This document shows positions 14,781 through 24,906 of a stretch of DNA of 64,000 nt, piece after piece; the stretch's first letter is position 1; each line of letters starts with the position of its first letter. The position numbers were made by a program, and so were the translations under genes. This DNA is from a virus, in IMG/VR virus record IMGVR_UViG_3300037882_003354, positions 124,001 through 188,000 of that record; one strand, 5' to 3'. The notes beneath the pieces were generated by a model. The model was not told the origin of the DNA. It searched no databases and saw only the letters and a list, made by a program, of their open reading frames with translations.

Positions 14781-15335
14781 ATGAACAAACGAATATCCTG
14801 CCAGGGACAACTGCTGGCCGCCAATCCGGTAAACCCTGCCGATGAACTCTGCAAGGCCGTCATCCTGGTGCTCAGCCACAACCCCGACCGGGCTATTGGC
14901 ATACAGATCAACAGCCCCCTGGAAAATCTCACACTACAAGCAGTGGCCGGTAAATTGGGCATAGAGTATGAAGGTGCAGACCCCATCTGGTCTGGTGGCC
15001 CAGCCGGACCAACTAAAATTCATGTCATACATAGTCTGGACTGGGCCAGCCTGAGCACTGTGCAAATCAACGAAGGAATTGGAGTCACCAGTGATGTGTC
15101 AGTGATTGCTGCACTCAGTCGTGGTGATGGCCCTGAACATTTCCGAGCATGTTCGGGATTCTGGATCTGGGAGGATGGACGTCTGGATCGGCAACTGGAT
15201 GTCCGGTCACAAGAGCCCTATACCTGGGAACTCAGCGCCGCCACCGTGACGTCTGTGTTCCAGGGCGAGGGCACCATGCAGTGGCTGGCCGTTCTGGAAG
15301 ACAGTGCCCAGCTGCAGATAGACAACTGGTTCTAA
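14781..15335 (+). CDS. YqgE/AlgH (DUF179) family protein
   Basis: 184 residues. The opening CQGQLLAANPVNPADELCKA, then VILVLSHNPDRAIGIQINSP, is the standard start of YqgE/AlgH proteins (G-x-L-L-x-A-x-P, HN-x-x-x-A-x-G-x-x-x-N-x-P), and SGGPAGPTKIHVIHS and GDGPEHFRACSGFWIW follow in the expected order. Family length is usual. Bacterial YqgE has no firmly established biochemical role. The 3' end overlaps the convergent helicase gene by four bases. Confidence 0.82.
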   Translation: MNKRISCQGQLLAANPVNPADELCKAVILVLSHNPDRAIGIQINSPLENLTLQAVAGKLGIEYEGADPIWSGGPAGPTKIHVIHSLDWASLSTVQINEGIGVTSDVSVIAALSRGDGPEHFRACSGFWIWEDGRLDRQLDVRSQEPYTWELSAATVTSVFQGEGTMQWLAVLEDSAQLQIDNWF

Positions 15336-16822
15336 TCCCGCTCGGGGTTCACATCAGGCATGGTCAACATGCCGCGTATGCTGGCCGGCCGGCTGGATGC
15401 ATTGTTCTTGAACTTGTTGGCACTCATGCCCACAGTGGGATCAATGATCTCCCCAGTGGCATCGTCCACTGATGTGGTGCTGACCACGCTGGTACGCTTG
15501 AGTCCCTGATACGCACTATTACCACCGCCAGTGCTCTGCTGTGCTCGTTGTTGGCTGAAACTACTGGTGTCTTCATCCTCGTTCAAGTCTGTGATGCGCA
15601 GAGTGTCCAGGTTAAACTCCAGATCCACCTTCTGTCCCACACCACTACTGCTGCGTGTCTTCATGAACTGAATCTGATAACGACCACGTTCCTTCATGGC
15701 CCTGCTGGTAAAGATGCCAATGACATTGTCTGCTGTCATGATCTTGCTCAAGCCACCTGAAATGTGACTGTGGTCAAACTCAATCTCCTCCACTGCACTG
15801 CGATTCAACTGACTGGCAGTGACTGTGACACATTGCGTCTCCATGGCCAAGTTTCTGATCTCCTCACTCACGTATTTGTCCTTGACGAACAGATCACTGG
15901 GCGATACCTTTACTGACAGTGGCATCATCAAATCCAGGTAATCTATGAGCAAAACATCAGGTTTTACGCCTTTTTTCACCTGATATTCTTTAAGATATGC
16001 TCTGATATCGTTACAATTCTTGCCACTTGGCATGTACTTGATCTGTATGCTGCCCGCCTTCTTGCCCAGCATCTTGACCTTGAGTTCCACGTCATCAATG
16101 TTCTTGAAGATCTCGCGTGTGCTGATGCCTGTGGTCATGCTGTCCAGTCGCATGGCCACCAGACCCTCGCTCAACTCGAATGTCAGGTACAACACATTTA
16201 GACCCAGTTGCGCCCAGTTGACTCCCATGTTGGCCAGGAACAGACTCTTGCCGCCACCTGATCCTGCACAGAAGATGTTGAGCTCGCCGCGGTTAAATCC
16301 GCCATACAACTTGCGATCAATGCTGGGCCAGCCTGTGCTGATCTGCCCGTTGCCGTCTTTCAACTTGCTCAATCGACTGCGCGGATCTTCAAAGTAGTCA
16401 GTGCCCATGTCCTTGTTCAGACTGATCTGAATGGCATCCTTGATCAACTTCTCCACAGGTCCATAGTCTCCAGCCTCCAGCAGATCACTGCTCTTGATGA
16501 TGGCCCGCTCCAGGCCCTTGTGCCGGCTGAAGTTCTCAAACTCATCCATGAGCCATTCGTAGTTCTCACGGGGCAGGGTAATGGCATCGAAAGTGCTGCG
16601 TGTGGCTGCATTAACAATGCTGGCCTCGGGCATGACCTTGTATTCATCCACATACCGGTTGATAAACTCTGCGGCCGCCTGCAGACGTTGATCAAAGTTC
16701 TCATGATCAAAAATATTCTGACACCTGACAAATGTTTCAGCATCTGACAGGAACATCTCCAAATATAACTTCTGCATGGCAAAGTCATAGTTGGGTTTGA
16801 CCGCGGCTTTATTCTTCTGCAT
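15332..16822 (-). CDS. gp41: Replicative DNA helicase, T4 gp41-like (DnaB family)
   Basis: 496 residues, close to T4 gp41. Walker A GSGGGKS at 187-193 within GELNIFCAG, Walker B-type LLIDYLDLM near 315, and an arginine-rich C-terminal RecA core (KERGRYQIQFMKTRSS). The N-terminal 180 residues are the helical collar domain. As a hexamer it unwinds the fork on the lagging strand and carries the primase. The gene overlaps the 3' end of the primase gene by 14 bases, so the two primosome parts are translated together. Confidence 0.93.
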   Translation of the reverse strand: MQKNKAAVKPNYDFAMQKLYLEMFLSDAETFVRCQNIFDHENFDQRLQAAAEFINRYVDEYKVMPEASIVNAATRSTFDAITLPRENYEWLMDEFENFSRHKGLERAIIKSSDLLEAGDYGPVEKLIKDAIQISLNKDMGTDYFEDPRSRLSKLKDGNGQISTGWPSIDRKLYGGFNRGELNIFCAGSGGGKSLFLANMGVNWAQLGLNVLYLTFELSEGLVAMRLDSMTTGISTREIFKNIDDVELKVKMLGKKAGSIQIKYMPSGKNCNDIRAYLKEYQVKKGVKPDVLLIDYLDLMMPLSVKVSPSDLFVKDKYVSEEIRNLAMETQCVTVTASQLNRSAVEEIEFDHSHISGGLSKIMTADNVIGIFTSRAMKERGRYQIQFMKTRSSSGVGQKVDLEFNLDTLRITDLNEDEDTSSFSQQRAQQSTGGGNSAYQGLKRTSVVSTTSVDDATGEIIDPTVGMSANKFKNNASSRPASIRGMLTMPDVNPERD

Positions 16823-17807
16823 TTTCCAGTTTCCTCTTCAGTAGATGTAGATTTATCTCTCCACTGACCTTGTAGTGTAATATTGTGGACAACGTGTATA
16901 ACCTGCCGTATCGTTTCACAGCATCAGCCGCATCTTTGACATCTGACTCCCAGGGCGGCAAGCTCACGCTCCAGCCCTGATCGACAGCCACCTTGATCAT
17001 CTTGGCGCCCGCTCGATCACGATCAGGTACCACTATGACCTCCCGACCCAGGGAATTTATTCTAGCGCATTGTGTTTCATTGGGTTCATTGTGCATGATG
17101 GCCACTCCATCCACAGCAATGGCATCAAACTGTCCTTCAACTACTATAACAAATTTACGCTCGTTTGTCTGTCTATCCAGGTTAAAAACATAACCAGGTT
17201 GCGCATCTGTCAGGTACTTGGGTTTGCCGGGTGTAATCTTGCGACCAGTGTAGCCCACAATCTTGCCCTGATGATAGAAGGGAATGATGACTCTATCCCG
17301 GTAACCCTTGGCTGCACTCCAGTGCCAGTTGTACCAATCCCAGCCCATCTTGCGTTCATCCACCAGGTACGTGATTATATCAAGCAGTTCAGCTTCTTGC
17401 ATGCCCTGAGCTATCCATGTGTCCATGGGCAAACAGTCTGCAGGCAGAGGACGTTCCTCCAAGGCCAGTTGCAATGCTTTTTTGGATACAGGTTGATCGT
17501 CTTTGATCTTGAGTGCCAGCAGGTTCAACTTGCCTATGTCCATGTCACTAGCGCCCAACCATTTGAACAAATTTTTGGTATTCTTGCTCAGCAGCTTGCC
17601 CGGGGACCAGCCGGCTTTAAAATTACAGTTGAAACAACTGTATGCCCAGCCACCATCTGGGCTGGTCTTGATACCGCCTCGCTTCCTGTCATCCCTCTTT
17701 TCGCCGTTGTACGAACAACAGACCGAATTGAAACTATCCCACCCGCTGGGTGTGGATTTTCGATTGGGCGGCAGCAGTGAGAACAGGGCGGCCTGTATGT
17801 CGTTCAT
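16809..17807 (-). CDS. gp61: DNA primase, T4 gp61-like
   Basis: 332 residues. N-terminal zinc-binding domain with Cys30/Cys31 and Cys58/Cys61 (SCFNCNF), then the TOPRIM core: Glu224 in VVEGQFDA and the metal-binding PDRDRAG at 261-267. It makes RNA primers at the fork with gp41. The helicase gene overlaps its end. Eight bases upstream ends the virion-type gene 17816-18652, so the primase is probably read from that gene's promoter as well as from others. Confidence 0.92.
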   Translation of the reverse strand: MNDIQAALFSLLPPNRKSTPSGWDSFNSVCCSYNGEKRDDRKRGGIKTSPDGGWAYSCFNCNFKAGWSPGKLLSKNTKNLFKWLGASDMDIGKLNLLALKIKDDQPVSKKALQLALEERPLPADCLPMDTWIAQGMQEAELLDIITYLVDERKMGWDWYNWHWSAAKGYRDRVIIPFYHQGKIVGYTGRKITPGKPKYLTDAQPGYVFNLDRQTNERKFVIVVEGQFDAIAVDGVAIMHNEPNETQCARINSLGREVIVVPDRDRAGAKMIKVAVDQGWSVSLPPWESDVKDAADAVKRYGRLYTLSTILHYKVSGEINLHLLKRKLENAEE

Positions 17808-17815
17808 GCACTATT

Positions 17816-18652
17816 TTAACACCTGTAGAGCACTTTGTCAAATGAACCGTAATATGCAGGATTGTCGTTGTCAAATTCAGCAGGTGCAGTGGCTGGCACA
17901 TACATGATTCGAACATAGGAAAAGATGCCGTTGAAGTTTACATAATCAACACCGGTGAAGTCGTCGTAAGACAGTGTTTGTACAGTTACGTATCGATCAA
18001 AACTTTGCGGGCTGTTGTACAAGGTGCCCTGTACATACACGGTGCCACGGAAACCGGTCATGTACATGGCCATGGTGTGCAAGGCAGTGTTACTATTATA
18101 CTCTGGGCATGCATAAACATTACCGCTCTTGTGCTCGTACTGATTGGTAAATGAATTAAATGATTTGTTAAAACTCACGATCTCTTGGCTGGACTGTAGC
18201 ACAGGATTAATGTCTTCGGCCAAGTGAACAGTGCCAGCAACTCCGTAATAGGTGTTGGCGTAAGTGGGCAAATACGTGCCGTCATCAGGATCTCGATACT
18301 TGACGCTGAATTGATAACTGGACTTGGTGAGATCCATGGTGTCGCTTTCCGTCAGGGTCAGCAGGGCCAGTCCCCGTGTGCTGGTGTTGGTCTCAATGAC
18401 CTCCAGTTGCTTCTCCAGCACCAGCCGTTGGCTGATGGTGTCGAACATGGAGAATACAAATGTCTGCGTGTTGCTGATGGACACTCGCTTTTGATCGCTA
18501 TTCTTAAACTGAATGCGTACCTTGTTCTTGATTCCCTTTTGAATCTTGAGATCGTGCTGATACATAACTTGATTGACTCCTCGTACAGTGGGGTACAAAT
18601 CTAATATTACATCCAGATTGTTGTCATATAAATAGATTGGTAAATTTTGCAT
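17816..18652 (-). CDS. Conserved virion-type structural protein
   Basis: 278 residues. The start MQNLPIYLYDNNLDVILDL, then VMYQHDLKIQKGIKNKVRIQFKNSDQKR, matches a conserved family of T4-like aquatic phages annotated as virion structural proteins; the body is beta-rich. The exact position in the particle is unknown to me. The ATG at 18652 lies five bases after a TAAATA late element; the longer upstream frame crosses that promoter and is rejected. Confidence 0.72.
   Translation of the reverse strand: MQNLPIYLYDNNLDVILDLYPTVRGVNQVMYQHDLKIQKGIKNKVRIQFKNSDQKRVSISNTQTFVFSMFDTISQRLVLEKQLEVIETNTSTRGLALLTLTESDTMDLTKSSYQFSVKYRDPDDGTYLPTYANTYYGVAGTVHLAEDINPVLQSSQEIVSFNKSFNSFTNQYEHKSGNVYACPEYNSNTALHTMAMYMTGFRGTVYVQGTLYNSPQSFDRYVTVQTLSYDDFTGVDYVNFNGIFSYVRIMYVPATAPAEFDNDNPAYYGSFDKVLYRC
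18627..18634 (+). promoter_or_regulatory. Perfect TATAAATA on the plus strand
   Basis: TATAAATA (18627-18634), 38 bases before the ATG at 18673, inside the start of the minus-strand gene. A candidate late promoter for 18673-19056. Confidence 0.5.
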
Positions 18653-18657
18653 ACTAG

Positions 18658-18663
18658 TATTTA
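18658..18663 (-). promoter_or_regulatory. T4-type late promoter, 5 nt from ATG
   Basis: TAAATA read from 18663 to 18658, five bases, ATG at 18652. Confidence 0.75.
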
Positions 18664-18672
18664 TTGATAACA

Positions 18673-19056
18673 ATGTCAACAACCACCATCTTCCAAGAAA
18701 ACTATCCCTTTATCACCTGCATCAAGTCAAACGACATTGAATACGTGGGGTTGATCATCAATAACGATACCTATATCACCAGCATCTACGATATTGCAAC
18801 ATTACGTTCCGGTGATGAACGTCGCATTTTTTTGGAAATGGGAGAAGTATGGTGGTGGGAGAGCAACCGTAAAATACCCATCAACATATTTCTTAAAAAA
18901 GAAATGCAATTGTTCAAGTATACCATCAAAACTTTCAACAGCAAGGACACCGTTATAGTCTTCGGACCCACGGTAAATCTCAGTGAGATTGCCGAGAAAC
19001 GCGTCAAGCGCAAATCCATTCAATTGGTCAGGGTTCCCAAGCAGAATCTCGACTGA
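18673..19056 (+). CDS. Conserved T4-like phage protein, function unknown
   Basis: 127 residues. EYVGLIINNDTYITSIYD, then MGEVWWWESNRKIPINIFL and the end KRVKRKSIQLVRVPKQ recall a conserved small protein of aquatic T4-like phages. Basic C-terminus. Isolated on the plus strand among minus-strand genes; its end overlaps the convergent gene by 29 bases. Confidence 0.7.
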   Translation: MSTTTIFQENYPFITCIKSNDIEYVGLIINNDTYITSIYDIATLRSGDERRIFLEMGEVWWWESNRKIPINIFLKKEMQLFKYTIKTFNSKDTVIVFGPTVNLSEIAEKRVKRKSIQLVRVPKQNLD

Positions 19057-19618
19057 GGTTTTCACATATCAAATTCATCTGCATGACCACGGCATGTGCA
19101 TAGCCATAGGCATGGGATTTTTTCCATGAGTATTCCACAGTCTTGGTCCAGATGTCTGAGGCAATGGCCGCCCAACCCTGATGCGCACACACTGATATCA
19201 GATGCCGTTTTCCCGGTCTCAGCAGTGCCAGAAACATGGCCAATTGATCGATATTACGTGGCCTCAGTTCAGCCACCAGGTCATGATGACCATTGACATG
19301 AAATATCATGTCGGAAAACTCACGTTGCTCCAATAGTTCCCACATGGGTTCCACGGCCAGCAGCCGGTTGATATGAGTTTCGTCCTTGACATCCTGGTAC
19401 ACACCCACATTCAAAAAGTCTATCTTGAAATAACCCCGAGCCTGAGCCGCACGGTAGTCCATGCTGGCTGTGCCGGTCAAAGGGTTCACGGGAATTTCCT
19501 GGCAGTAGACACCAGTGTTATGACGCTTGACCGTTTTGCCATCATCAATGGTGGCTGGCACATGCTTGATCAACTCAAGTATGCTGTTGCGATCTCCAAA
19601 ATCAATGTCAATGTCCAT
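19028..19618 (-). CDS. Short protein with C-family polymerase (DnaE-like) palm motifs
   Basis: 196 residues. It opens MDIDIDFGDR, like the PDFDVDF strand of DnaE; Asp4 and Asp6 would match the catalytic Asp401/Asp403 of E. coli. HNTGVYCQEIPV (33-44) resembles the HAGGVVIAP segment, GYFKIDFL (62-69) resembles GLVKFDFL with Lys65/Asp67 matching Lys553/Asp555, and LRPRNIDQLAMFLALLRPGK resembles the LxPxxFxDxxALxALxRPG segment. So all three metal-binding aspartates appear in order in one sixth of the length of DnaE. Overlaps the hldD-like gene by 11 bases. Activity cannot be judged from sequence. Confidence 0.68.
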   Translation of the reverse strand: MDIDIDFGDRNSILELIKHVPATIDDGKTVKRHNTGVYCQEIPVNPLTGTASMDYRAAQARGYFKIDFLNVGVYQDVKDETHINRLLAVEPMWELLEQREFSDMIFHVNGHHDLVAELRPRNIDQLAMFLALLRPGKRHLISVCAHQGWAAIASDIWTKTVEYSWKKSHAYGYAHAVVMQMNLICENLSRDSAWEP

Positions 19619-20384
19619 TGAGTGTCTGTGTTAGCTTGGTTAGATCAGCACAGGTGTACTGCTGATATTGTTTCTTTATATTGTCTGGCATGGGTATATA
19701 TTCTATTTTAGCACCATAATGCACGGCAATCGAGCGAGCCACTGCTTCAAATGATCTGGGCTTGCCAGTGCCCACATTCCAGATGCCAGATTCCTTGATG
19801 TCAAAAAACTTCTTATGCACATCAATTACATCATCCACGTGTACAAAATCCCTGAGGTATTGATCCGAGTTTTCAAATAATTTTATCACACCAGTCTCAC
19901 GAGCCTGCTTTTCAAATTTATAATAAGGGCTGGCTTGATCACCTTTGTGTTCTTCATGAGGACCGTGTACGTTAAAATACCGGAACCCCTGCACTCGGAT
20001 TCCGTTAAACTTGTTGGACAGCACATGGCGATCAAACAAATACTTGCTCCAGGCATAGGGGCTCTGTGGGCTGTGCGGTGCCTGCTCACTAAAATTTTTA
20101 CCCAACCCGTACACACTGGCCGAACTGGCATACTGCAAATTCACATTGTTGGTCTGGCAGGCCACCAATAATATGCAACTGAAGTCATGATTCTGTCGCA
20201 TGACTTTCTCAACATCAGTCTCAGTGGTGCTGCTGATGGCGCCCAGGTGTATGACCCAATCCAAACCTTCAAATTCGGGAATGGCATCACCCCACTCGTA
20301 ATAAGTCAGCTGGTGGTCGTCACGTAGTGCTTTGACCATGTTCTGGCCGATAAATCCTTTGTATCCCGTGATTAAAATTTTCAT
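19608..20384 (-). CDS. hldD: NAD-dependent sugar epimerase, HldD-like
   Basis: 258 residues, extended short-chain dehydrogenase fold. Nucleotide loop GYKGFIG at 7-13, Ser/Tyr/Lys triad with SSASVYG and YAWSK (Tyr109, Lys113), then GFRYFNVHGPHEEHKGDQAS and RDFVHVDDV. The YFNVHGPxExHK segment is typical of ADP-L-glycero-D-manno-heptose 6-epimerase. It sits beside a HldE-like cytidylyltransferase and a cupin, overlapping the former by four bases, which supports a heptose role. Substrate is inferred. Confidence 0.82.
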   Translation of the reverse strand: MKILITGYKGFIGQNMVKALRDDHQLTYYEWGDAIPEFEGLDWVIHLGAISSTTETDVEKVMRQNHDFSCILLVACQTNNVNLQYASSASVYGLGKNFSEQAPHSPQSPYAWSKYLFDRHVLSNKFNGIRVQGFRYFNVHGPHEEHKGDQASPYYKFEKQARETGVIKLFENSDQYLRDFVHVDDVIDVHKKFFDIKESGIWNVGTGKPRSFEAVARSIAVHYGAKIEYIPMPDNIKKQYQQYTCADLTKLTQTLNGH

Positions 20385-20797
20385 TTGGTAGCCAATACTG
20401 CGTTGTAAATGTCTTGAACTTTCTTGGTTGTCGAATACAGGTCCAATCGATCATAGAATATGACTTCTTTGCAATGCTCTGCACCGATGATGTGCCGGCC
20501 TCGATAGTCACTGCCCTTGATCATGAGATCCGGTTCAAAGTTTTTTATCAGAGTGTCTAATTCTGTATCTGAGTCAAATATATCCACACGATCCACCGCC
20601 TTGAGCGCAAACAAGAAACTTGATCTTTCAAATTCGTTGTTGACTGGCCTGTGTTTGCCCTTGAGTTGGGCAATCCTTCGATCACTGTCAATAAGAACAT
20701 AAACGTAGGAGTCAGGGTGGCAACGGGCGTATTCCAATAATCGCAAATGGCCCACGTGTAATATATCAAATGATCCATTAACAATTATTTTTTTCAT
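20381..20797 (-). CDS. Cytidylyltransferase-like protein, HldE C-terminal type
   Basis: 138 residues. GSFDILHVGHLRLLEYA (8-24) carries the HxGH nucleotidyltransferase signature; DRVDIFDSDTELDTLI and the later KGSDYRGR are as in RfaE/HldE C-terminal domains, which load heptose 1-phosphate with AMP. Glycerol-3-phosphate cytidylyltransferase is the main alternative. The kinase half of HldE is not in the window. Confidence 0.8.
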   Translation of the reverse strand: MKKIIVNGSFDILHVGHLRLLEYARCHPDSYVYVLIDSDRRIAQLKGKHRPVNNEFERSSFLFALKAVDRVDIFDSDTELDTLIKNFEPDLMIKGSDYRGRHIIGAEHCKEVIFYDRLDLYSTTKKVQDIYNAVLATK

Positions 20798-21150
20798 TTT
20801 TGACTGTCCCCCGGCATCACTCGATAATTATCCTCCACAGAATCAGGTGTGCTGACTTCTATGATGGTGCCTGCCTGCAAGCAGGTGATACGATGCGGTA
20901 CCAGTGGATCATTATGATGAACACCACCTTCCCCGACAATTTTCTTATTCACTTTGGCAGTTAGGGTGTCAATGACTTCAATTTCAAACAGGCCACTCAG
21001 CACATACCAAGTTTCTTCTTTTTCAGAATGAAAGTGCATGCTAAACTTGCTGCCTGTATTGAAGTTAAGGAACTTGCTGCAATATTTGTCGTTGGTGACC
21101 CAGATGAGTTCTGAACCCCAGCCCTTTTCAACTTTTCCGTCTAATCTCAT
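20794..21150 (-). CDS. Cupin-fold protein, sugar-isomerase-like
   Basis: 118 residues forming one cupin barrel. Metal ligands are visible: His39 and His41 in MHFHSEKEETWYVLSG, and a later His in VPHRI. EKGWGSELIW resembles mannose-6-phosphate isomerase and dTDP-sugar epimerase-like cupins. It overlaps the cytidylyltransferase gene by four bases and belongs to the same sugar module; substrate unknown. Confidence 0.75.
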   Translation of the reverse strand: MRLDGKVEKGWGSELIWVTNDKYCSKFLNFNTGSKFSMHFHSEKEETWYVLSGLFEIEVIDTLTAKVNKKIVGEGGVHHNDPLVPHRITCLQAGTIIEVSTPDSVEDNYRVMPGDSQK

Positions 21151-22939: not shown

Positions 22940-23443
22940 TCACCAGCATTTGGTATAATCCACCAGTTCACTCTGGCGGCTGACTTCTTTGACAAAGTAT
23001 GCACACAGAGGTTTTTTACCTGCATGTAATGGAGTGCACAGCAATTGCCCGGGTCGCATTTTGGGAAAGTACCATTTGACATCTTGGTAGACATCGATGA
23101 TGTCTATCTCCAGTAATTCTGGTCTAAAACTGCTAAGTGGATTGAAACAGAAAGTTTTAAATCCGCGATCGTTAAGACTGGTGAGTGGCAGGATTTCCAT
23201 GTCCGGGCCCTCAGCATCACCCACAATGGTGCACCAATCCAGGGGCATGGTGATCTCGTGTGGTCCTATTTTTAGCACAACTGCTGGGCCTGTAAAACTT
23301 TCCAGGAAGATCAGGGGAATGAAAAAGTGGTCGGGGTTTTGATTGTCACTATTGTCCAGCACAGCAAATCGCAAGTCGTCATCAACTTCATCTGGCAGTT
23401 TATTGAGAAAGAATGTTTCGTTATCGAGCGTGAGTATTTGCAT
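22940..23443 (-). CDS. Conserved T4-like phage protein, function unknown
   Basis: 167 residues, beta-rich, starting MQILTLDNETFFLNKLPD and ending with a conserved-looking LCAYFVKEVSRQSELVDY stretch. Always, in my experience of this phage group, close to uvsW. Its start overlaps the UvsW stop by one base. Confidence 0.66.
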   Translation of the reverse strand: MQILTLDNETFFLNKLPDEVDDDLRFAVLDNSDNQNPDHFFIPLIFLESFTGPAVVLKIGPHEITMPLDWCTIVGDAEGPDMEILPLTSLNDRGFKTFCFNPLSSFRPELLEIDIIDVYQDVKWYFPKMRPGQLLCTPLHAGKKPLCAYFVKEVSRQSELVDYTKCW

Positions 23444-24906
23444 TATTGGTATTTTACTTTCTCTATTGTGAATGGGTATTTGGCATCTTTGTAAAATCGT
23501 TTGCGTTCGGTCAGATGCCGCTTGGCGTATTTTGTGCTGGCAGTGATATCCCAGATGCTGACAAAGTCTTTGTCGTCGGCCTTTCTTATGCCCCGTCCAA
23601 TACTCTGTATAACACGGACAAAACTTTTCCCGGGTTCCAACAGAACCAGATTAAAAATCCGAGGGATATTAATACCCACAGCGGCAACACCATAGGTAGC
23701 CACAATAATCTTGTTATCAGCAGTCTTAATTTCGTCATATTCTTCTTTTCTGTCCTTGGTTTTAACTTCCCCAGAGACAAAAACACTACCTGGTATTTTT
23801 TCCGCTATGGCTCTTCCTGAATCAATTCGATTGACCAGCACCAGAGTGTTGCCACTTGCTGAGATGGTATTTACTAGTTCGCTGACATAATCCATGCGCG
23901 TGTTGTCTGTGACCAAATATTTAAGTTCTTCTGCATAACTGCCAAACTCTTTCCACTCCGCAGTCTGTATGATGTTCACATGACAGTTGCTCAGTACACC
24001 TTTCTCCTGCAACTCATGTGCGCTCACCCGATTGATCACCTCACCCAGGCTGGCACGGATGCTTTGGAATTCGTGATCGGCCTTGGGCACGGTGCCAGTC
24101 AGCCCCCATCTGATGGGAGCATGGGACAGATTGCGTGTCAACAAATTCCTCAACACGTCTGCTTTGGCCATGTGCACCTCGTCCACCATGACTGTGCTGA
24201 CACCTTCCAGCAACTCTGCCAGTGTCAGCAGTTCGGCATCTCTGCTGAAATCCTTGGACTTTTTATCCAGGATGTTCAGACTTTGCCAGGTGCAGATGGT
24301 GTGTGTTTTATCCAGATTTTTTCTATCACCATAGTACACACCCACATCCAGACCGCAGTTGAGGAAGTCTTCTTCAGTTTGTTCCACCAGACTCTTGTTG
24401 GGCACAATGGTGACCGTACGTCCATACTTTTCGCAGATCTTGGCCAGGGTGGCCGTGGTGATGGTTTTGCCAAATCCCGTGGCGATCTCTTGGATGCATT
24501 GTGGGTTCTTTAGGAACATGTTGACCACTTCCACTTGGTCATCACGCAGACGAATTGGTTGACCTGCAAATCGATGACCCACTGGCCATGTTTGCTCGCC
24601 CCAAAAATCTTCAAAAATCTCTTCAAACTCCAGTGCTGGGCTGGTGCGCAAGTCTTCCACTTCCACGTAATAGTTTTTACTTTCCAAGTATTCCAGCACT
24701 GGTTCTAACATGCTCAAGTAGGTGGTACCACCCAGTCCAAAGAAAGAAATGCTGCCATCCCAGCGACCCAATTTGTAACTGGGTCGGAATCTGGCCGATG
24801 GATCCTCGTACTTGAATTTTTTAACCAGAGCCTTGCGTGTATCGAGATCTAGATTCGATATCTTGACATTGACTTCGTCTAGGATTGTTACCCGTGCTGT
24901 GGCCAA
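23443..24906 (-). CDS. uvsW: UvsW-like DNA helicase
   Basis: 487 residues, superfamily 2. N-terminal small domain (about 1-110), Walker A ATGFGKT at 142-148, DEVH box at 242-245, WGLTGT (motif III) and QSIGRGIRK (motif VI). In T4 this enzyme remodels branched DNA and R-loops and turns origin-dependent into recombination-dependent replication. It overlaps the preceding gene by 19 bases. Confidence 0.92.
   Translation of the reverse strand: MATARVTILDEVNVKISNLDLDTRKALVKKFKYEDPSARFRPSYKLGRWDGSISFFGLGGTTYLSMLEPVLEYLESKNYYVEVEDLRTSPALEFEEIFEDFWGEQTWPVGHRFAGQPIRLRDDQVEVVNMFLKNPQCIQEIATGFGKTITTATLAKICEKYGRTVTIVPNKSLVEQTEEDFLNCGLDVGVYYGDRKNLDKTHTICTWQSLNILDKKSKDFSRDAELLTLAELLEGVSTVMVDEVHMAKADVLRNLLTRNLSHAPIRWGLTGTVPKADHEFQSIRASLGEVINRVSAHELQEKGVLSNCHVNIIQTAEWKEFGSYAEELKYLVTDNTRMDYVSELVNTISASGNTLVLVNRIDSGRAIAEKIPGSVFVSGEVKTKDRKEEYDEIKTADNKIIVATYGVAAVGINIPRIFNLVLLEPGKSFVRVIQSIGRGIRKADDKDFVSIWDITASTKYAKRHLTERKRFYKDAKYPFTIEKVKYQ

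Follow-up and report, generated by a model that had tools for sequence, protein, structure and literature searches.

Genomic Location and Gene Neighborhood

The window analyzed here, a stretch of 64,000 nucleotides, corresponds to positions 124001-188000 of a phage record of 322,512 bases. A reading from the sequence alone had singled out an open reading frame (ORF) of 196 residues at 19028-19618 of this stretch, and we find it to be real and to lie on the minus strand (19618→19028); the plus-strand reading of the same interval is interrupted by stops. Its product comprises the DxD strand of a polymerase palm, the KxD strand and reduced fingers, and we refer to it below as the C-half, the candidate C-terminal half of a split minimal DNA polymerase (Pol) III alpha.

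The 3' end of the gene overlaps that of a small opposite-strand ORF of 130 aa (18664-19056, plus strand); a small ORF on the opposite strand occupies the same position in L052-L055, L057, L058, L060, L061, and L064. This ORF has a weak match to DapH_N (E=0.005), below cut-off. There follow a gene of 288 aa (17816-18682, minus strand), with "virion structural" annotated at this position in several relatives, a DnaG/gp61-like primase (16809-17807, minus strand), whose DNAG_N and Toprim matches are weak and below the Pfam cut-off but which occupies the same place in annotated relatives, and a DnaB/gp41-like replicative helicase (15332-16822, minus strand; PF03796, E=3.9e-17), again in the same place in relatives. 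On the upstream side, the block includes a UvsW-like helicase (23443-24906, minus strand), also located upstream of the C-half in RaK2 and 121Q. The order C-half, small opposite-strand ORF, one gene, primase, and helicase is shared by the window and most relatives, with XacN1 and RAS14 differing. The T4-type replication setting attributed to this gene on first reading is thus borne out by the DnaB/gp41-like helicase, the DnaG-like primase and the UvsW-like helicase.

Directly upstream of the C-half, and overlapping its start codon, the window also holds a nucleotide-sugar cluster (19608-21150) with an NAD-dependent epimerase, a cytidylyltransferase-like and a cupin-like member. None was seen at this place in annotated relatives.

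Sequence Relationships and Fold of the C-Half

In a profile search, residues 1-187 of the 196 match PHROG 11778, annotated as DNA polymerase, with E=5.3e-58, and the Pfam model of the DnaE fingers gives a weak match below cut-off. The four motifs MDIDIDFGDR, HNTGVY, GYFKIDFL, and LALLRPGK, listed in the sequence-only reading as counterparts of DnaE motifs, do occur in DnaE order, as the profile, the structure match and the conservation pattern all confirm. To these we add a fifth, KKSHAYGYA, which follows LALLRPGK and is the counterpart of DnaE NKSHAAGYG. Single-protein phmmer of the C-half against the PDB found no match, and a profile was needed; with it, seven of the nine matches, including the best two, are Pol III alpha chains, at weak E-values (best E=0.007). 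The top match is Mycobacterium tuberculosis (Mtb) DnaE1, in which PDIDIDFDDR, GLLKMDFL, ALYRPG, and FNKSHAAGY align in order, again at weak E-values. The codons of D2, D4, and D6 (DIDID) span 19601-19615 on the minus strand and align to PDIDIDFDDR of Mtb DnaE1 (414-424), while those of K65-I-D67 (KxD) span 19418-19426 on the same strand; the residues are invariant in homologues. D4 and D6 match D401 and D403 of Escherichia coli DnaE, and K65 and D67 are the counterparts of K553 and D555 (E. coli numbering).

An AF2 model built from 28 sequences (mean pLDDT 74) has high confidence in the fingers (pLDDT about 90) and low confidence over residues 1-80, the palm strands (37-69). Poor confidence in the palm strands of a lone C-half would be expected if the sheet needs its partner, but it could also come just from a shallow alignment. 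Residues 72-190 of the model superpose on E. coli DnaE 561-781 with Z 10.2 and rmsd 2.8 over 113 residues (VIA-align). This is the fingers region, a part of DnaE that also helps to bind the incoming nucleotide. The first 12 rows of the VIA-align ranking all belong to DnaE, to PolC, or to entries with DNA polymerase in the title; chains without such a relationship appear from Z 3.0. The C-half is a true relative of DnaE, that is, of the C-family polymerases, well above chance.

Conservation and Selection

Homologues of the C-half are found by tblastn in 63 phage records, mostly of at least 280 kb, at identities of up to 46%, and at 49 loci in IMG/VR with identities up to 80%. The alignment of 28 IMG/VR homologues has 44 columns without variation, among them D2, D4, D6, K65, D67, R134, K137, and H169. 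In a set of 20 very divergent phages (which includes RaK2, 121Q, GAP32, Phosso, Paride, Atu_ph07, XacN1, RAS14, and SCTP-2), D2, D4, D6, H33, G36, K65, D67, P120, A131, R134, P135, K137, H169, and Y173 never vary. The three catalytic aspartates (Asp4, Asp6, Asp67) and Lys65 to which the sequence-only reading had drawn attention therefore stand the comparison with homologues, and in the same 20 phages the catalytic residues of the N-half described below are invariant as well. Against its nearest relative (L001), the C-half has a dN/dS of 0.147/1.33, about 0.11 (NG86). Given the invariance of Asp4, Asp6, Lys65, and Asp67 and a dN/dS of about 0.1, the C-half is neither a chance resemblance nor a decaying relic.

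A Second Gene for the GS-Motif Part of the Palm

The first residues of the C-half already belong to the DxD strand, and the GS-motif part of the palm, which in DnaE precedes DxD and is required to complete this active site, is absent from it. Starting where it does, the C-half alone is no complete catalytic unit. Across the whole phage record, PF07733 has a single match, at 289075-289317 on the minus strand (E=9.5e-13, profile positions 15-95 of 260). It falls within an ORF of 173 aa outside the window (G000:289072-289593, minus strand), which matches PHROG 11127 with E=4e-43, ends in ...VGRGSSVASYCLYLMGVHKVDSIKYELDIKEFLK-stop and lies about 145 kb from the C-half in the same genome. This protein, the N-half, carries the GS-motif part of the palm, and E. 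coli DnaE 320-392 is the stretch to which the profile of its family aligns. For its nearest IMG/VR relative (L075), residues 78-173 of the structural model superpose on DnaE 279-393 (Z 6.0, rmsd 3.0, 91 residues). This result is a VIA-align re-ranking of the chains returned by Foldseek, in which eight of nine rows are DNA polymerases at modest Z; Foldseek's own table for this model has no DnaE among its matches.

The two proteins correspond to adjacent, non-overlapping stretches of bacterial DnaE, with the N-half stopping just before the C-half begins; the end of the one alignment and the start of the other place the cut in the DnaE palm between residue 393 and the DxD motif. Only when both are taken together is the active-site set of C-family polymerases (GS, DxD, and KxD) present. 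A complete DnaE elsewhere in the genome was considered and rejected, there being neither a second PF07733 match nor any match to the compact single-chain phage DnaE.

As to the surroundings of the N-half, a gp44-type clamp loader lies near it in RaK2, Paride, and SCTP-2. A GroES-like ORF (L051:882-1214) is found near it in the window's phage, in G001 and in Phosso.

Joint Occurrence of the Two Halves

By profile search, both halves are present in 12 of 12 isolate genomes and in all six IMG/VR records of at least 250 kb, the window's genome included, these genomes having been picked for carrying one half. The genes are never adjacent; in relatives they lie between roughly 14 kb (in RAS14 and XacN1) and more than 200 kb from each other. 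Pairwise distances among N-halves and among C-halves correlate (r=0.87 over 20 pairs; none of 5000 label permutations as high), a correlation that shows shared descent, not contact. Co-occurrence and correlated distances would also follow from vertical descent within one phage lineage and are no proof of contact.

Phages with only one half, which BLAST had seemed to reveal, were rejected: RAS14 and SCTP-2 have both by profile search. Other apparent one-half records are short or partial (PP728206, MT837784, MT839356), and CM1 (OP883945) was left out of the profile check. The contigs with an N-half and no C-half (G015-G019 except G020, G021, G022) measure 184-246 kb and may be incomplete, and so provide no test of co-inheritance. 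C-half sequences also occur in contigs of MAGs labelled Neomarinimicrobiota, Natrialbaceae, Elusimicrobia, Rickettsiales, and others (L181-L188). We rejected a host origin on this basis, reading these eight contigs from unrelated phyla as probably misbinned jumbo-phage DNA.

Other Polymerases in the Same Genomes

A family-B polymerase is encoded in each of the 18 genomes that carry both halves, and the split enzyme would therefore add to the main replicase and not replace it. In the window's genome the match (E=8e-38) covers G000:266290-267495 inside an ORF of 896 aa, with DIE, SLYP, and YGDTDS kept. A DnaQ-like exonuclease was considered as an obligate partner and rejected, being found in 10 of the 18 split-polymerase genomes and not detected in that of the window. 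In RaK2-type phages (L176, L177, and others), a DnaQ-like 3'-5' exonuclease gene lies upstream of UvsW.

Some related jumbo-phage contigs contain a further enzyme, a single-chain, PHP-less DnaE-like polymerase of 582 aa with GS, DxD, and KxD intact, about 5 kb from the C-half (L074:1267-3015, plus strand; contig G001:23592-25337). Single-chain DnaE-like polymerases occur also in G003, G006, and G008 (L071-L073). In contig G001 this compact fused enzyme of the C family accompanies both split halves and a family-B polymerase. According to Iyer et al. (2021; PMC7824862), phages that have the split version are devoid of any further Pol III domain, and G001 looks like an exception to that statement.

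A Probable Polymerase with Its Palm Divided between Two Proteins

We propose, and regard it as probable, that the C-half forms the C-terminal part of a minimal polymerase of the C family that is specific to phages and has its catalytic palm divided over two genes. The C-half contributes shortened fingers and the strands with DxD and KxD, which bear the three metal-binding aspartates, and the second gene contributes the palm portion with the GS motif; the two products would assemble non-covalently into one Mg2+-dependent nucleotidyltransferase active site. Since the palm needs pieces from both proteins, the active species would be a heterodimer, and the two proteins most likely form a thumb-less accessory polymerase without covalent link. 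Joining of the halves by a split intein was rejected, as there is no surplus sequence in either protein where they would meet: in all homologues read, the N-half extends no more than about 12 residues past the DnaE homology and the C-half has no more than about 20 before DIDID, which leaves no room for an intein. With the PHP, thumb, OB fold, and clamp- and tau-binding parts missing, synthesis is predicted to be short and of low processivity (distributive). The likeliest role, a speculative one drawn from the gene neighborhood, would be primer extension or short gap filling beside the family-B replicase, given that the C-half sits beside primase and helicase and that, in several relatives, the gp44 clamp loader is close to the N-half. 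A fuller picture, in which an obligate heterodimer of about 370 residues with one active site across the protein-protein interface hands primers to the T4-type family-B replicase, so that a bacterial-type and a B-family polymerase would act at the same fork, is possible but doubtful.

Without the thumb and about half of the fingers, the pair might carry out a simpler transfer or only bind nucleotide or DNA. In one such scenario, which we consider unlikely, the heterodimer keeps the metal/NTP site and is no DNA polymerase, acting instead as a single-step nucleotidyltransferase (end addition, priming, or protein or RNA nucleotidylation). A poor grip on duplex DNA is to be expected with these parts gone (113 residues aligned over a DnaE stretch of 220), and replication is already served by an intact PolB. 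Nevertheless, the invariant fingers motifs (P120, RPxK, H169, Y173) fit retained handling of template and nucleotide, and both genes lie within replisome gene blocks. As for the suggestion in the sequence-only reading of a minimal nucleotidyltransferase, the nucleotidyltransferase identity stands, on profile, structure and conservation, but the idea of a self-sufficient single protein does not, the GS-motif part of the palm being in a second gene.

Far less probable is an inactive structural or regulatory module, either a decoy aimed at the clamp or polymerase of the host, as had also been suggested at first, or a replisome subunit that only binds DNA. The small size of the C-half would suit it, as would one string, QLAMF, that resembles a clamp-binding motif. 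This string is the only one of its kind, falls within a helix of the DnaE fingers and lacks conservation, whereas the catalytic residues are all invariant across very divergent homologues; moreover, a decoy would have no use for an intact active site spread over two genes that are inherited together. The last alternative, a decayed remnant of a complete DnaE gene disrupted by an insertion, is akin to the structural relic once envisaged, and the fragment-like size and the split position would suit it. It can be practically dismissed, given invariant catalytic residues, the low dN/dS (about 0.11), conserved synteny and the presence, in each of the 18 large genomes, which come from many groups of hosts, of both halves with the same clean ends and the same point of division.

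If active, the divided polymerase that we favor would be an exceptionally small C-family enzyme and a rare case of a catalytic palm common to the products of two separate genes. It is relevant to the question of why jumbo phages, already equipped with a complete family-B replicase, retain another polymerase, and its activity is open to direct test in phages available in culture, among them RaK2, 121Q, and Paride. It also bears on the origin of C-family polymerases, the split enzyme having been proposed as a model of their ancestral form (Iyer et al. 2021; PMC7824862).

Comparison with Known Systems

In the "group 2.2" jumbo phages, Iyer et al. (2021; PMC7824862) described a minimal Pol III alpha whose two parts are separate proteins encoded far apart. 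They proposed that the two halves reconstitute a catalytic enzyme which, beside the family-B polymerase, perhaps acts on one strand or in repair. Earlier, a "truncated" Pol III alpha of 172 aa had been noted in phage CBB (2017; PMC5259590) and a Pol III alpha gene in Atu_ph07 (2018; PMC6102473). Our literature search, with most subscription papers outside its reach, found no experimental study of the split polymerase.

Bacterial DnaE/Pol III alpha (E. coli 2hnh, Taq 2hpi, Mtb 5lew) shares with the pair the order of the GS, DxD, KxD, and fingers motifs and a local fold match. Unlike it, the split pair lacks the PHP, thumb, OB, and tau- and clamp-binding parts, has its palm on two polypeptides and has fingers of about half the length; in place of a single chain with PHP, palm, thumb, fingers, and clamp-binding region, there are only proteins of 196 and 173 aa. 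The PHP-less single-chain phage DnaE-like polymerases (PHROG 405/11165; L074 in G001) likewise have a C-family palm and fingers without PHP, but differ from the pair in being one chain and in keeping the thumb region. From the group 2.2 split Pol III alpha (PHROG 11127 and PHROG 11778: RaK2, 121Q, GAP32, Atu_ph07, PA5oct/Paride, XacN1, SCTP-2) the window's phage has no defining difference: both have a C-half that starts from the DxD strand, with the Mg-binding aspartates and fingers, a distant gene for the GS-motif N-half, and a family-B polymerase. What sets it apart from the group 2.2 isolates is a C-half no more than 46% identical to theirs and the nucleotide-sugar cluster directly upstream. 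The window's genome is a new uncultured member of a split Pol III alpha family known from sequence since 2021.
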